In this document: piece by piece, positions 41,933-47,923 of the stretch
Numbering within the stretch: position 1 is the first letter of the stretch
Layout: every line of letters begins with the position of its first letter
Assembly: GCA_027593175.1 (NCBI GenBank)
Contig: JAQCJI010000001.1
Location: 1 to 64,000, forward strand
DNA: 64,000 bases
Reading direction: 5' to 3'
Source: Bacteroidota bacterium
GTDB taxonomy: Bacteria > Bacteroidota > Bacteroidia > Cytophagales > Cyclobacteriaceae
Translations under genes and position numbers: made by a program
The notes under the pieces: generated by a model
Database searches by the model: none
What the model was told of the DNA's origin: nothing
What the model saw: the letters and a program-made list of their open reading frames with translations, nothing else

Positions 41933-43793
41933 TTATTCCTTCACCTCAAAAGCTGCCGACTCCCAAGGTCCTAGGATCAGTTCGATTTGGGCACCTTGCT
42001 CGTTTACGTAAAGCTTGGTTTTTTTCTTCCCAAACATTTTTTCCTCCAGCTCCCGAGTCCCTGGCTTCAAATTCCAAGCTTTTAGGAGCTCAGGAGAAAG
42101 TCGAAGGGTGGTATTCAGAGAGCGGTATTCGTCAAAGTTGGTGACTACAAGTAGCCTTTGGTTCTCGTCCCAGCGAGCAAAAGCAAAGGAGGTGTTGGTG
42201 TAATCGGGATTTAACTTCCGGTTGTGAGTGTGCAGCTCGAGGCACTCTCCCATTAAGGCCGAGCTGTTGCGCGTAAAATTCAATACTTCGGCATAGTAGT
42301 TTCGCAAAGCCTTTTCGTCCGATGAAAGTTGGCCCCCATCAAACTTCCTTTCGTTCATCCATTTCTGATGCTGAGGTACGCCGATGTAGTCAAAGATAGA
42401 GGTGCGGCTGGGCTGCCCAAATCCGGCTATTTCTGCGCCAGGCTCACCTACTTCTTGACCAAAGTAAATCATGGTCGGTGCAGTAGTGCTCGTGGCCGAC
42501 ACCACAAATGCAGGAAGTGCTTTCCAGGGATTGCCAGCAAATTCTGGACTTGCAATGCGTTGCTCGTCGTGGTTTTCTAGGAAGTGGAGCATGTGATGCT
42601 CTATATCTGACAAAACCTGTAGGATGGGCACCAAATTATCCGTGGAGCCATGGCCTTGCATGATTTGCTTTAGTGTGTCGTAGAGCTCTACCTTGTCGTA
42701 GAGGTAATCCATCTTTCCCTTATGAATGTAGTCGCGGTAGAGGCTTGGGTTATACACCTCTGCCAAAAGCAAGGCTTTGGGATTCGTCTTTTTGATGTGG
42801 GAGTTGAGGTAGGACCAGAACTCCACCGGGACCATTTCGGCCATGTCAAATCGGAAGCCATCCACACCCTTGCTCAACCAGAATTGGGTGATGTCTTTAA
42901 ATTTTCTCCAGGAGTCAGGTACCGCTTTTCCTTGCCAAAACTCGTAATGTGAGCTCCAATCTAAGGTTGCTGCATCGGCGGGTAGTTTTTCAAACTCTTT
43001 TTTACCTTCTGGGCTGACTCCATAGTTTATTTTTACGGTTTCGTACCAATCGTAGAAGTCTGGCTGGGCCTTTCGGGAGCCATTGCCGGTCCACTTTACC
43101 GGGTCTTCTAGAAAAATACCATTTGCCAGGGGATGGGTTTCCCCTCCCAAGGGCTGGTATCCATTTTTGGATTCAGGTAACCGAAACGATTCTCCCGGGA
43201 TATAATAGAAGTTGTTGTCTTTATGATAGGCCACCGTATTGTCGTCAGTGGCGCCGAAATCCTGAACTCCGCTGGGATTATTTTTCCCTTCGTAATGGCG
43301 GGAAACGTGATTGGGTACCATATCGATAATCACCTGCATGTCCTGGGTATGCGTACGGGCAATCAGCGCTTCAAACTCTTCCATGCGGCGCGTGACATCT
43401 ACGGCAAGATCGGGATTAACCTGGTAGTAGTCCCGCACAGCATAGGGGGATCCTGCGCGGCCTTTGATCACATCTGGATCGTCTGAAGGTACTCCTATTT
43501 CGGGAAAATCTCCGATTATGCCATGGTGAGGAATTCCTGTGTACCAGATGTGGGACACACCCAGCTTCTTGATTTCTGCCAAAGCGGCATCTGTAAAGTC
43601 GTTAAATTTTCCAACCCCATTTTGTTCCTTGGTACCCCAAGGAATGTTGCTGCGGTTGGTATTGCCAAAAAGTCGAGTGAATACCTGATAAACGATAATT
43701 TTCTTGGGAGGCATGGAGTTGGGATCGTCAGGGTTGGGAGTTTGGCTAGAAAGTAGGATCAAGGCCAACAGGGAAGGAAAGATTTTTTTTCAT
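41933..43793 (-). CDS. Secreted alpha-amylase family (GH13) enzyme; signal peptide frame-disrupted by an A8 homopolymer
   Basis: DMVPNHVSRHY, GFRFDMAEM, LLAEVYNP, FLENHDEQRIAS GH13 motifs; ATG at 43793 is in another frame until one A is removed (MKKIFPSLLALILLSSQTP...). Confidence 0.85.
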
Positions 43794-43838
43794 CTGCTTA
43801 TCGGGTCAGGCGATACAGCAGGAGTGTGTTACGTTTGA

Positions 43839-44624
43839 TTAAGGAGTGGATTTGGATAGCCAATTTTTGAGTTTTTTATATTCAAGGAGCTGCGCCAGGG
43901 GTTTAAGAAAAAAGAGAAATCGATTCAAGAGGAGGAAACTTCGAAAGAGTGTGGAAGGAAAAATCTTCTTTTTCCCTTTTGCGGCACCAATTAGCATGCT
44001 TTCGACCACTTTTTGCGGGCTTTGAATTGGAAATGCTTTCGGAATATTGGTTCCTGCAGCATCGAAAAAGGAGGTGGCTGTGGATATGGGAAATACGAGG
44101 GTCAACCAATCTCCCGCCCGCTCCGCCCAGAGCGATTCGGCCCATTGAAGGAGTGCTGCCTTGGTGCTGCCGTATAGGCTGTATCCGGGAATTGACCAGT
44201 AGGCAATTGCGGAACAGGTAATCACATATCGTAGTGAGTGGCCAGGAAAAGACTGTTTAAAGGCCAACCCAAGTTGGATGGGTGAATGGACATTCAGTTG
44301 AAAGAGGCGATCCATCTCTTCCCAATTTTGTTGGCATGCGGCGCCATACTCTGCTCTGCCCGCATTGGCGAAGCAAACATCCACTTGTGTCCAATGGGCA
44401 CGGACCCAGGCCAAAATAGCGCCGTTTCCTTCCTTGAGGCTTAGGTCTGCACACAAGGTGTTTACATGTGGGAATTCACTTTGAAGAGATTTCAGCGATT
44501 TGGGAAGGTAGTCTACTGCCAAAATCTTTTGGGTCTGTGGGTAAAGTTGACGAATCAGCTCTCGACCTATGCCGGAACCCGCTCCCGTGACAATGATCTG
44601 GGCGTCCTTGAATCTATTCATCAT
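43839..44624 (-). CDS. SDR family oxidoreductase
   Basis: VTGAGSGIGRELIRQL, YGSTK motifs; probable start MMNRFKDAQIIVTG. Confidence 0.88.
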   Translation of the reverse strand: MMNRFKDAQIIVTGAGSGIGRELIRQLYPQTQKILAVDYLPKSLKSLQSEFPHVNTLCADLSLKEGNGAILAWVRAHWTQVDVCFANAGRAEYGAACQQNWEEMDRLFQLNVHSPIQLGLAFKQSFPGHSLRYVITCSAIAYWSIPGYSLYGSTKAALLQWAESLWAERAGDWLTLVFPISTATSFFDAAGTNIPKAFPIQSPQKVVESMLIGAAKGKKKIFPSTLFRSFLLLNRFLFFLKPLAQLLEYKKLKNWLSKSTP

Positions 44625-45276
44625 TAGTAAGTAGGGAAGGAATAGGGAAATGGATGGTAAATGGATTGACTTTGAGGGCAAGCAAAGGCTGAATGCCTTC
44701 GAGGTCAGGGAAGAGCTGGGGGTCTACCCGCATGCGTTGCACCCTGGCCAATTTACCCCAACCACTTCCTTTGGGAAGTGTCACCCATGTCTTTCCATCT
44801 AGCATTTGCTTCAGGCGTAAAGGTAGCAAGGCGGTGCTGATGGGAAATGATATTCCCCCGTGGGTGATTTCTGTGTCGAGTATGGTTTTTCCCTCCAGTT
44901 CCACTTCAATGCGGTCCTTTCCCTTTTCTTTTTCCCAGCAGAAGCTGGCCGTCTCCTTGGGGATACCCCAGTTTTTTCTACCCTGGTCGGTGCTTGCCTC
45001 CGAGTTTACGAAAATGCGGGTGATGGATTGAAACTTATTTTCTCCAAACTGACCTGGGATAAATAGGAGTTCTTGGTAGGGGCCTACTGGGGAGCTACTG
45101 TAATCTACGAGCATCACATAGCCGAAGCCCCCTTTAAACTGACCTTGGAGGTGTTCAGGGAGATTGGACTTGCTTTCTACCCAAGATTTTTTGAAGCGGT
45201 AGAGCAATAGAATTCCTTCCCCATGTAGGGTCCATGGAGGAGGAGCTGGAGCAAAGTTTGGACTGGTATTAGGCAT
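44614..45276 (-). CDS. Acetoacetate decarboxylase (ADC)-like fold protein
   Basis: FGYVMLVDYSSSPVGPYQELLFIPG; STDQGRKNWGIPKETASF, the ADC Lys-containing motif; start MPNTSPN preferred. Confidence 0.82.
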   Translation of the reverse strand: MPNTSPNFAPAPPPWTLHGEGILLLYRFKKSWVESKSNLPEHLQGQFKGGFGYVMLVDYSSSPVGPYQELLFIPGQFGENKFQSITRIFVNSEASTDQGRKNWGIPKETASFCWEKEKGKDRIEVELEGKTILDTEITHGGISFPISTALLPLRLKQMLDGKTWVTLPKGSGWGKLARVQRMRVDPQLFPDLEGIQPLLALKVNPFTIHFPIPSLLTNDE

Positions 45277-46057
45277 AAGGGGAAGGGCTGATAGCGGTCC
45301 ATCCCCCATCGATGATTAGGGTTTGGCCGGTAATGTGTCGGGCATCATCCGAAAGTAAAAAGGCTGCTGCCGCTGCAATATCTTCCGGAAATGCAGGCCT
45401 AGATAGCGGTGTGAGCTTGGACCAGGTGGCCGAGTAGCCTGGGTCCAAGGTCGTCCTTTCAGTAAGCGTTGCTCCTGGGGCAATGGTATTGATGCGTATG
45501 CCTAAGGGAGCAAGTTCTAGCACCAGATTTTTTGCCAGCATTTCAATGGCTGCCTTACTCATGGCATAGGCTGCCAGATTTTCATGACTTTGGTGGGCAG
45601 TCACAGAAGAGGTAAATAGAATTGCACCTCCCTTTTCTTGAGATTTCATGAGGCGAGCCACTGCTTGGGTTAGAAAGAAGGTGCCCAACTGATTCACACG
45701 GGCTACCTCTATAAAATCTTCCCTTCCATAGTCCATAAAATTTCCAAATAGGGTAATTCCTGCATTGCAAACCAGTTGGTCGATGGTGCCGTGATTTTTT
45801 ACGGCAAGGCCTACCATCTCCTCGATGACCTCGGGGTTGGCGGCGTCTCCTGAGCAGCCGATGACCGATCCTTTTCCCAAACGAGAAAGCTGGGCCACAG
45901 CCTCATGGGTTAGGCTTTTCTCCCGGTCATTGAGGAGAATATGTGAACCCTCTTCCAGTAATTTTCTGGCGATAGCGAGTCCTATCCCTTGTCCTGCTCC
46001 AGTGATGAGTGCTACTTTGGTCATATCTTTTTTTATGGATTTGCCTTCAGGCGGCAA
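45269..46057 (-). CDS. SDR family oxidoreductase (sugar dehydrogenase-like)
   Basis: ITGAGQGIGLAIARKL, NAGI, YAMSK, DDARHITGQTLIIDGGW. Confidence 0.93.
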   Translation of the reverse strand: MPPEGKSIKKDMTKVALITGAGQGIGLAIARKLLEEGSHILLNDREKSLTHEAVAQLSRLGKGSVIGCSGDAANPEVIEEMVGLAVKNHGTIDQLVCNAGITLFGNFMDYGREDFIEVARVNQLGTFFLTQAVARLMKSQEKGGAILFTSSVTAHQSHENLAAYAMSKAAIEMLAKNLVLELAPLGIRINTIAPGATLTERTTLDPGYSATWSKLTPLSRPAFPEDIAAAAAFLLSDDARHITGQTLIIDGGWTAISPSPYA

Positions 46058-46076
46058 TTCTACTTGTAGTAAAAAA

Positions 46077-47825
46077 CTAGTGGGAATCTCGTTTCACTTC
46101 GGGTCCAGAGCTTCCTTGGAGAAAATCAAAATCTACCCCTTCATGGGCTTGGTTGACCTTGTCGAGAAACAAGTTTACATAGCCTCTGTAGTAAGGGAGA
46201 GGGCTAGGCCTAAAGGCTGCTTGCCTATTCGCTAGCTCCTCCTCAGATATCAGCAGGTTTAAGCTTCGTTTGGGTACATTAAGCGAAATCAAATCTCCGT
46301 TTTTGACTAAGGCAAGTGGTCCACCGATGGCAGACTCGGGAGAGACATGCAGCACCACGGTACCAAATCCTGTACCGCTCATCCGCCCATCTGAAATACG
46401 AACCATATCTTTGATTCCTTTTTCAAGCAACTTTTTGGGAAGGCCCATGTTGCCAACCTCTGGCATGCCGGGGTATCCTTTGGGACCAACTTTTTTCAGG
46501 ACCATCACGCAAGTCTCGTCAATATCCAGTTGGGGATCGTCGATTCGTGCTTTGTAGTCGTCAATATCTTCAAATACCACTGCCCTTCCGGTATGGGTCA
46601 GCAAGGTTGGGCTGGCAGCAGAGGGCTTCAACACAGCGCCTTGGGGGCAAAGGTTTCCTTTCAGTACGGCGATACCAGACTCTGGTTTGATGGGCTGTTC
46701 GAATGTACCGATCAAGTTTCTATCCCAGCATTCGGCGAATTGAATATTTTCGCCCAAGGTCTTGCCATTGACGGTGAGTGCGTCGGTATGGAGGAGTTGT
46801 TGGATCTCCTTCATGACCGCAGGAAGTCCACCGGCATAGAATAGGTCCTCTACCCAATGCTCCCCGGAGGGCTGTATATTGGCGATGAGGGGGATTTTGG
46901 AAGAAAATTCATCAAAGTCTGCCAGGTCCAAGGGAACTCCTATTCGTTTGGCGATGGCGATGAGGTGCAGGATAAAATTGGTCGATCCTCCTACAGCGGC
47001 ATTGACCATGATGGCATTTTCAAAGGCCTTTCGGGTTAGGAGCTTATCCATCGTCAGGTCTTCCTTCACCATCTCCACGATACGTATACCCGCCATATGT
47101 GCCATTACTTTTCGTCGGGAATCTGCCGCAGGGATAGTGGCATTGTCAGGGAGGGCTAGTCCCAAGGCTTCCACCATGGCAGCCATAGTAGAAGCGGTGC
47201 CCATAGGAGCGCAGTGCCCTACCGATCGTGACATGGCCGCTTCAGCTTCTATAAATTCTTTTTGGGATAGTTTACCGAGCTTAAAATCTTCGGCAAATCG
47301 CCAAATGTCGGAAGTGCCTATTTTTTTGCCTTTGTATCTACCCACGAGCATAGGGCCTCCCGAGAGAACAAGCGTAGGGAGGTTGACCGAGGCAGCACCC
47401 ATCACGAGTGAGGGGGTGGTTTTGTCGCATCCACACATGAGGATTACGCCATCCATTGGATTGGCCCGAATGCTCTCTTCCACATCCATGGAAGCGAGAT
47501 TTCGAAACAACATGGCAGTAGGCTTGATGGAGCATTCGCCTAGGGACATGACTGGAAACTCGAGGGGAAATCCGCCTGCTTCCCAGACGCCTCGCTTGAG
47601 AGCATCGGCCAAATCACGGAAATGGGCGTTGCAGGGGGTCAGTTCGGACCAGGTATTGCAGATGCCGATCACGGGCTTTTCGCCTTCAAAAAGATGGTGG
47701 GGGAGTCCCTGGTTTTTCATCCAGGACCGGTAGATAAATCCATCTTTGCCGGTTCTTCCGTACCATTCTTGGCTTCGGAGTTTCTTTTTGGTCATGAGGT
47801 TACTTAGGTTTTGTAAATTGGCCAA
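46077..47825 (-). CDS. IlvD/Edd family dehydratase, probably sugar-acid (arabonate/xylonate-type)
   Basis: GICNTWSELTPCNAHFRDLA, LMCGCDKTTPSLVMGA, GHCAPMGTASTM, DGRMSGTGFGTVVLH. Confidence 0.88.
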   Translation of the reverse strand: MANLQNLSNLMTKKKLRSQEWYGRTGKDGFIYRSWMKNQGLPHHLFEGEKPVIGICNTWSELTPCNAHFRDLADALKRGVWEAGGFPLEFPVMSLGECSIKPTAMLFRNLASMDVEESIRANPMDGVILMCGCDKTTPSLVMGAASVNLPTLVLSGGPMLVGRYKGKKIGTSDIWRFAEDFKLGKLSQKEFIEAEAAMSRSVGHCAPMGTASTMAAMVEALGLALPDNATIPAADSRRKVMAHMAGIRIVEMVKEDLTMDKLLTRKAFENAIMVNAAVGGSTNFILHLIAIAKRIGVPLDLADFDEFSSKIPLIANIQPSGEHWVEDLFYAGGLPAVMKEIQQLLHTDALTVNGKTLGENIQFAECWDRNLIGTFEQPIKPESGIAVLKGNLCPQGAVLKPSAASPTLLTHTGRAVVFEDIDDYKARIDDPQLDIDETCVMVLKKVGPKGYPGMPEVGNMGLPKKLLEKGIKDMVRISDGRMSGTGFGTVVLHVSPESAIGGPLALVKNGDLISLNVPKRSLNLLISEEELANRQAAFRPSPLPYYRGYVNLFLDKVNQAHEGVDFDFLQGSSGPEVKRDSH

Positions 47826-47891: not shown

Positions 47892-47923
47892 AAAAAAAAA
47901 TCCCTTGATTCAGTACCAAGGGA
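47892..47923 (-). terminator. Terminator downstream of murA
   Basis: TCCCTTG...CAAGGGA stem with a T-run on the minus strand. Confidence 0.7.

Follow-up and report, generated by a model that had tools for sequence, protein, structure and literature searches.

Four closely packed genes on one strand raise the question of whether they serve one pathway or several. They lie in a 64,000-nucleotide stretch (the window) of the genome of a freshwater Algoriphagus, with a completeness of 83.5%. The earlier note had read an IlvD/Edd-family dehydratase (DHT), a short-chain dehydrogenase (SDR1), an acetoacetate-decarboxylase-superfamily protein (ADC) and a second short-chain dehydrogenase (SDR2) as a candidate undescribed sugar-acid pathway. 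Our check of the open reading frames, together with Pfam matches, recovered all four genes, tightly packed between 43839 and 47825 (Table 1). Start sites of all four were trimmed by comparison with relatives. DHT then begins at ATG 47795, which gives the protein length seen in the genus, and the longest reading frame runs from TTG 47825; SDR1 begins at ATG 46024. The starts of ADC (ATG 45276) and SDR2 (ATG 44624) fall exactly where the earlier note had put them and overlap the preceding stops at the SDR1/ADC (ATGCCTAA) and ADC/SDR2 (ATGATGAATAG) junctions, and a gap of ∼50 bp separates DHT from SDR1. On the other side, murA is set apart from the quartet by a terminator-like stem with a T run (47923-47901, pattern match only). 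The quartet is probably transcribed together in the window's lineage.

Table 1. Features of the locus, with positions in the window
Feature	Position	Strand	Basis
DHT, IlvD/Edd-family sugar-acid dehydratase (predicted), 572 aa	46077..47795	-	PRK06131, PDB matches, conserved residues
SDR1, classical NAD(P)-type short-chain dehydrogenase, 251 aa	45269..46024	-	Pfam adh_short_C2, linkage to DHT
ADC, acetoacetate-decarboxylase-superfamily protein, 220 aa	44614..45276	-	Pfam ADC, AlphaFold2, Foldseek, residue mapping
SDR2, second SDR, separate subfamily	43839..44624	-	Pfam adh_short, alignment, tree, phylum scan
Terminator-like hairpin and T run, between murA and DHT	47901..47923	-	Pattern match only
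Deletion junction, SDR2 3' end and last codons of M20 peptidase IKRNTLLLYRLTR	43798..43854	-	Comparison with relatives
Alpha-amylase-family gene, neighbour outside both modules	41933..43768	-	Pfam, relatives' loci

Gene overlap within a single genome can be misleading; here the neighbourhoods of relatives divide the apparent pathway into two modules. DHT was found in 35 of 37 Algoriphagus genomes with SDR1 adjacent in every case (35/35), and the same linkage is seen in other Bacteroidota families, which bears out the view that these two genes belong together. ADC was present in 26 of the 37 genomes; SDR2 accompanied it in 21 of these 26 and never occurred without it. Seven Algoriphagus genomes keep an intact DHT-SDR1 locus with neither ADC nor SDR2, and Mongoliitalea lutea shows the reverse, with DHT-SDR1 missing and ADC-SDR2 kept beside murA. 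In sister genera an extra gene separates SDR1 from ADC, and in one genome (G427) DHT-SDR1 and ADC lie on separate contigs. DHT is also far more conserved within the genus than ADC (84-94% versus 45-88% identity).

Outside Cyclobacteriaceae, no DHT was seen near ADC at the loci examined, and ADC-SDR2 occurs without any DHT in Clostridia, spirochaetes, one Syntrophaceae genome and other Bacteroidota. Of 23 ADC loci that lack DHT (Mongoliitalea counted), 11 have a relative of SDR2 next to ADC; ADC comes first in Bacteroidota (ADC-SDR2) and second in Firmicutes, spirochaetes and Syntrophaceae (SDR2-ADC). The SDRs linked to ADC cluster with SDR2 in the tree, apart from SDR1. The SDR2 profile matched at ≤1e-50 in 6 of 396 Bacteroidota genomes, all within the 8 that bear ADC and at adjacent coordinates; since this profile was partly built from ADC neighbours, only 3 of the 6 genomes are independent support. 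We conclude that the quartet very probably consists of two functionally separate gene pairs, DHT-SDR1 and ADC-SDR2. Against this, ADC-SDR2 sits behind DHT-SDR1 with overlapping starts in most Algoriphagus, and a link within the clade may therefore still exist. The earlier note had proposed that a lack of co-conservation of the quartet would refute a single sugar-acid pathway; the outcome goes partly against that pathway, since the DHT-SDR1 half stayed together and the ADC-SDR2 half separated from it.

The first pair, DHT-SDR1, is the core of the quartet. DHT matches Pfam ILVD_EDD_N (378 bits) and ILVD_EDD_C (205 bits) and scores 888.7 bits against PRK06131 (cut-off, 539). Its best PDB matches, the Rhizobium leguminosarum L-arabinonate dehydratase (5j83, 9evv) and the Paralcaligenes ureilyticus dehydratase (8ej0), align over the full length at 766-828 bits and share with it three cluster cysteines, the catalytic-loop serine and the terminal histidine. 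Unlike the L-arabinonate dehydratase family, DHT falls under the curated cut-off of the equivalog NF009559 (841.5 against 882 bits). The motifs TPCN, GCDK and GHC/GSC are conserved, as is the catalytic-loop serine in SDxRMSG, and both the three iron-sulphur-cluster cysteines and the terminal histidine (...RDSH or ...RESH) were kept in 39/39 orthologues. In sugar-acid IlvD/Edd dehydratases, the C-terminal histidine completes the active site of the neighbour (PMC11316719). Family, active-site residues and C-terminal histidine thus uphold the assignment of DHT as a sugar-acid dehydratase, and they argue strongly that it converts a sugar acid into a 2-keto-3-deoxy acid.

SDR1 matches Pfam adh_short_C2 (191 bits). 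Its sequence identity is low, 31% with the presumed L-KDF 4-dehydrogenase from the fucose cluster and 34% with the fucose dehydrogenase, which speaks against a firm assignment of its reaction. SDR1 would most likely oxidise C4 of the DHT product; an FAH-family hydrolase would then cut the 2,4-diketo acid so formed into pyruvate and either glycolate or lactate, in the manner of Route III, whose enzymology was described for H. huttiense and for L-fucose and L-rhamnose pathways (PMC6336799). As in that non-phosphorylative route, genes for a dehydratase, an SDR and an FAH-type hydrolase are all found in the window's genome, but here the hydrolase is encoded away from DHT-SDR1 and the C4 reaction of SDR1 is putative. 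The candidate hydrolase gene, which scores 331.6 bits and so lies below its cut-off of 500, is on contig C90 with genes for a fuconolactonase-like protein and a fucose dehydrogenase. A KDPG-family aldolase is present in 39 of 41 Algoriphagus genomes, that of the window included. Counterparts of the lactonase and aldolase that had been listed as missing are thus encoded on other contigs, along with the candidate 2,4-diketo-acid hydrolase. An FAH hydrolase occurs in 17 of 20 DHT genomes (13 of 16 outside the genus) versus 23 of 375 others, with p = 3e-16 in a test that ignores kinship, and genes of this kind are numerous in the large genomes of sugar degraders. A Route III-like breakdown by DHT-SDR1 with the C90 hydrolase in trans is a possibility that we hold tentatively. 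For the locus as a whole, we favour, with some reserve, two stacked pairs: DHT-SDR1 with its hydrolase in trans, and a separate ADC-SDR2.

SDR1 is nearly as likely to act as an aldose 1-dehydrogenase. Its best-scoring subfamily is PRK07231, 'glucose 1-dehydrogenase' (210 bits, just below the cut-off of 215), but this is a broad subfamily that matches many SDRs, the presumed KDF dehydrogenase among them. Together with DHT as aldonate dehydratase it would form the upper part of a Weimberg/Dahms-like pathway, with the lactonase and lower steps elsewhere. In other Bacteroidota, the neighbours of DHT homologues (62-65%) are a GntP permease, an FAH-type protein and sometimes an aldehyde dehydrogenase, and at one locus (L170) a glucose/sorbosone dehydrogenase gene lies between DHT and SDR1. 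However, SDR1 is missing from the clusters that have Weimberg-like partners, and those partners are missing from the DHT-SDR1 loci; the KDP dehydratase and ketoglutarate-semialdehyde dehydrogenase of the Weimberg pathway (Route II) are absent near DHT-SDR1. We rate this pathway as less likely than not, close behind Route III.

The conserved dehydratase-SDR pair is also a target for study, and Algoriphagus has a published gap at the L-fuconate dehydratase step: the reconstruction of the L-fucose pathway of A. marincola HL-49 left FucD missing, and the L-fucose account, in the part of the source available, does not mention the DHT-SDR1-ADC-SDR2 locus (PMC5507952). The window's genome belongs to the same genus and has the same gap, and HL-49 itself bears the quartet (locus L114). 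The C90-type cluster comprises genes for fucose dehydrogenase (401 bits; cut-off, 300), a fuconolactonase-like protein, the presumed KDF dehydrogenase, the FAH hydrolase, a permease and a mutarotase, and no dehydratase gene. DHT could supply this step in trans, as its strong co-occurrence with FAH genes would suggest, but in one genome (G002) the FAH cluster is present and DHT is absent. The configuration of L-fuconate at position 4 is opposite to that of 4S substrates. RlArDHT, a characterised relative of DHT, prefers 4S substrates (D-fuconate, L-arabinonate and D-galactonate), and this runs against L-fuconate as the DHT substrate (PMC11316719). In other Bacteroidota, a UxaA-family dehydratase gene lies beside KDFDH-FAH in 7 of 13 cases with DHT versus 11 of 21 without it (p = 1), which leaves non-orthologous displacement by DHT unsupported. 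The Algoriphagus UxaA-family gene, which adjoins the KDPG aldolase, could fill the role instead; the gap thus has two candidate genes, and we think it improbable that DHT is the missing enzyme. An enolase-type L-fuconate dehydratase was rejected, as the best MR_MLE matches among the Algoriphagus genomes start with a Tat-like leader and adjoin RraA-like genes outside the fucose cluster. One enolase-family reading frame was seen inside a fucose cluster from outside the genus (L232).

The second pair is built around a shortened member of the acetoacetate decarboxylase superfamily. ADC matches Pfam ADC at 46.6 bits (cut-off, 29.8), and its AlphaFold2 model (pLDDT 89.9) gave 24 top Foldseek matches, all 24 of them significant PDB fold matches to this superfamily; a PDB profile search with the ADC alignment gave no match at E 0.01. 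ADC has in common with the superfamily members 3bgt, MppR (4jm3), Sbi00515 (4zbo/6eej) and Swit_4259 (5upb) the fold, the Schiff-base lysine and a glutamate equivalent to E76, but it is shorter, only 11-18% identical and without equivalents of E61 and K116. By residue mapping, Lys107 and Glu69 correspond to K115 and E76 in the numbering of the clostridial acetoacetate decarboxylase; the equivalent of E61 is Val, Leu or Met and that of K116 mostly Glu. With two of the four residues kept, ADC is not predicted to be a true acetoacetate decarboxylase. Lys107 was retained in 85/85 sequences of the named-locus search, a count that is biased because the search pattern included the IPK motif, and in one copy from the genus (L059, G011) neither Lys107 nor Glu69 is retained.

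SDR2, which matches Pfam adh_short (76.5 bits), has a hydrophobic C-terminal segment, and such a recurring SDR partner distinguishes ADC from the known superfamily systems. Lys107 of ADC would form a Schiff base with a keto acid, leading to decarboxylation or aldol/dehydration chemistry, and SDR2 would reduce or oxidise the carbonyl compound of that reaction. The pair recurs as a two-gene module in many unrelated bacteria, where no sugar-acid enzyme adjoins it, and in Cyclobacteriaceae it sits behind DHT-SDR1. It is a further target for study, and no description of an ADC-SDR pair was found in the literature searched. With less than even confidence, we suggest that the two genes form an undescribed unit, distributed among Bacteroidota, Firmicutes, spirochaetes and Syntrophaceae. 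Its SDR would be dedicated to the product of the ADC-fold enzyme and probably associated with the membrane, and in Cyclobacteriaceae the unit would have been recruited to a sugar-acid locus. A single undescribed pathway in which ADC acts on the 2-keto-3-deoxy acid and SDR2 provides a second redox step would fit the overlapping starts, the linkage of ADC in 26 genomes, the retained lysine and the presence of the pyruvate/keto-acid-binding Sbi00515 and MppR among the top fold matches, but it is very unlikely given the genomes that carry one pair without the other, the recurrence of ADC-SDR2 without DHT in other phyla, the intervening gene in sister genera, the unequal conservation of DHT and ADC, and the hydrolase and aldolase encoded elsewhere; the keto-deoxy-acid role proposed for ADC thus finds no support.

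Downstream of SDR2, the neighbourhood in the window has been changed by a local deletion. In close relatives, three genes lie between SDR2 and the amylase; these conserved genes (c6, c12 and c15) encode a lipoprotein without a Pfam match, a Tat-NIF3-like protein and an M20-type peptidase, and they were therefore rejected as lactonase, aldolase or transporter partners. All three are deleted in the window, where the last codons of the peptidase survive directly behind the SDR2 stop, and no other copy of the M20 peptidase was found in the window's genome at its present completeness. The alpha-amylase, Gfo/Idh/MocA and TIM-barrel isomerase genes pointed out as neighbours in the earlier note are real.

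An earlier note had proposed a candidate undescribed sugar-acid pathway encoded by an IlvD/Edd-family dehydratase (DHT), two short-chain dehydrogenases (SDR1 and SDR2), and an acetoacetate-decarboxylase-superfamily protein (ADC). The four-ORF group and its overlapping starts were confirmed, with all ORFs and Pfam domains found, SDR1 overlapping ADC in ATGCCTAA and ADC overlapping SDR2 in ATGATGAATAG. DHT and SDR1 are ∼50 bp apart, and a terminator-like hairpin with a T run lies between the preceding gene, murA, and the quartet. The genome (2.49 Mb, 117 contigs, 83.5% complete) belongs by its named relatives to Algoriphagus (Cyclobacteriaceae).

Features of the locus in the window, with start sites set against relatives
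Feature	Position	Strand	Start	Remark
DHT	46077-47795	-	47795
SDR1	45269-46024	-	46024
ADC	44614-45276	-	45276
SDR2	43839-44624	-	44624
Probable deletion junction	43798-43854			Last 13 codons of M20 peptidase (IKRNTLLLYRLTR) directly behind SDR2; three genes gone
Amylase start	43701-43800			Likely ATG and signal-peptide start out of frame with main ORF, at an A run

We extracted the locus from every DHT-bearing Algoriphagus genome among the relatives. DHT is present in 35 of 37 genus genomes, with SDR1 next after it in all of them, while ADC is found in 26 and SDR2 in 21 of these 26, never without ADC. In seven genomes (G015, G016, G019, G020, G022, G027, and G031), all of them with uninterrupted context, DHT-SDR1 is present and both ADC and SDR2 are lacking. 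Mongoliitalea lutea carries murA followed by ADC-SDR2, with DHT-SDR1 absent within the 12.6 kb examined. At sister-genus loci L103 (Mongoliibacter), L113, L117 (Cognataquiflexum), and L136 (Cecembia), an ORF of 147 to 151 aa, DinB-like as judged by eye, separates SDR1 from ADC. The genes form a real same-strand run, but the reading of a single pathway has only partial support. The reading that can be defended divides them into two modules: DHT-SDR1, in which a sugar-acid dehydratase and an SDR make a conserved pair, and the independent pair ADC-SDR2.

ADC occurs without a nearby DHT at 23 loci, Mongoliitalea included, and an SDR2 relative adjoins it in 11 of these (one fragmentary). The gene order is ADC-SDR2 at the Bacteroidota loci; Clostridia, other Firmicutes, Treponema, Gracilinema, and Syntrophaceae have SDR2-ADC. 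Among 396 Bacteroidota genomes, ADC was found in eight and SDR2 (threshold, 1e-50) in six, all within those eight. In a quick tree with a narrow sample of other SDRs, ADC-linked SDRs group with SDR2, apart from SDR1 and other classical SDRs.

The AlphaFold2 model of ADC (16 family members as input) has a pLDDT of 89.9, and all 24 significant PDB fold matches are ADC-superfamily structures (11 to 18% identity). Alignment with 3bgt places K115 and E76, in the numbering of the clostridial acetoacetate decarboxylase, at Lys107 and Glu69, with E61 and K116 replaced. Equivalents of Lys107 and Glu69 occur in 85/85 sequences, found with a search pattern that partly selects for the lysine. Because of these retained residues and the fold, ADC would likely perform Schiff-base chemistry on an acid. 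In the G011 copy (L059), neither the Schiff-base lysine nor the conserved glutamate has survived, probably reflecting decay or a new role, and SDR2 is also absent from that genome. Further afield, ADC has an iron alcohol dehydrogenase as a neighbor at L147 and a flavin monooxygenase at L157, weakly compatible with carbonyl or ketone metabolism. In deltaproteobacterial MAGs (L129 to L131), an ADC homologue directly follows a trpA-like gene, by eye the end of a tryptophan operon.

DHT scored 888.7 bits on PRK06131 and fell under the equivalog cutoffs for IlvD, Edd, and L-arabinonate dehydratase; its closest solved structures are 8ej0 and Rhizobium L-arabinonate dehydratase. All 39 orthologues keep the cysteine motifs, the catalytic-loop Ser, and the C-terminal His that marks the sugar-acid branch of IlvD/Edd (PMC11316719). 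A second IlvD/Edd gene (contig C29, 35% identity to DHT) is presumably the biosynthetic IlvD. Some DHT homologues of other Bacteroidota (62 to 65%) lack SDR1 and adjoin a GntP permease and an FAH-family protein, sometimes with an aldehyde dehydrogenase, a Weimberg-like set; others are paired with an SDR1 homologue (46 to 54%), as in the window.

The lactonase and aldolase reported missing are indeed absent from the quartet, but a KDPG-family aldolase and a fuconolactonase-like gene are encoded elsewhere in the genome. The aldolase gene adjoins a UxaA-family gene in what would be a probable uronate locus. Contig C90 carries the fuconolactonase-like protein (285 bits; cutoff, 400), a putative 2,4-diketo-acid hydrolase of the FAH family (331.6 bits with the 2,4-didehydro-3-deoxy-L-rhamnonate hydrolase model; cutoff, 500), an L-fucose dehydrogenase (401 bits, above the cutoff of 300), and a permease; equivalents in relatives add a presumed L-KDF dehydrogenase (KDFDH) and a mutarotase. 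A dehydratase is absent from this non-phosphorylating L-fucose cluster in Algoriphagus (L168 on C90, L167, L185, and L186), a gap already described for A. marincola HL-49 (PMC5507952). In many other Bacteroidota, a UxaA-family gene adjoins the KDFDH-FAH genes (L208, L210, L211, L213, L215 to L218, L220, L223, L224, L226 to L230, L233, and L235); as a member of the altronate-dehydratase family, it is a candidate for the L-fuconate dehydratase.

The FAH hydrolase occurs in 17/20 DHT genomes versus 23/375 others, a strong co-occurrence in a count that takes no account of phylogeny. Displacement of a cluster-borne dehydratase by DHT was not supported because, outside the genus, UxaA-family genes adjoin KDFDH-FAH about as often in DHT-plus (7/13) as in DHT-minus (11/21) clusters. 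A better account of the co-occurrence would be that the hydrolase also serves DHT-SDR1, on whose product it would act in the manner of Route III (dehydratase, 4-dehydrogenase, and such a hydrolase; PMC6336799).

In relatives, lipoprotein, NIF3-like, and M20 peptidase genes lie between SDR2 and the amylase. Their loss is likeliest a deletion, and a MAG misjoin is possible; the rest of this 83.5% complete genome yielded no copy of the M20 peptidase. Unlike in the window, the amylase frame is open at the same place in a relative (L037). In many Algoriphagus, a GMC oxidoreductase and gluconate-2-dehydrogenase-subunit-3 pair (L056:13638-15942) lies just downstream, convergent to the locus.
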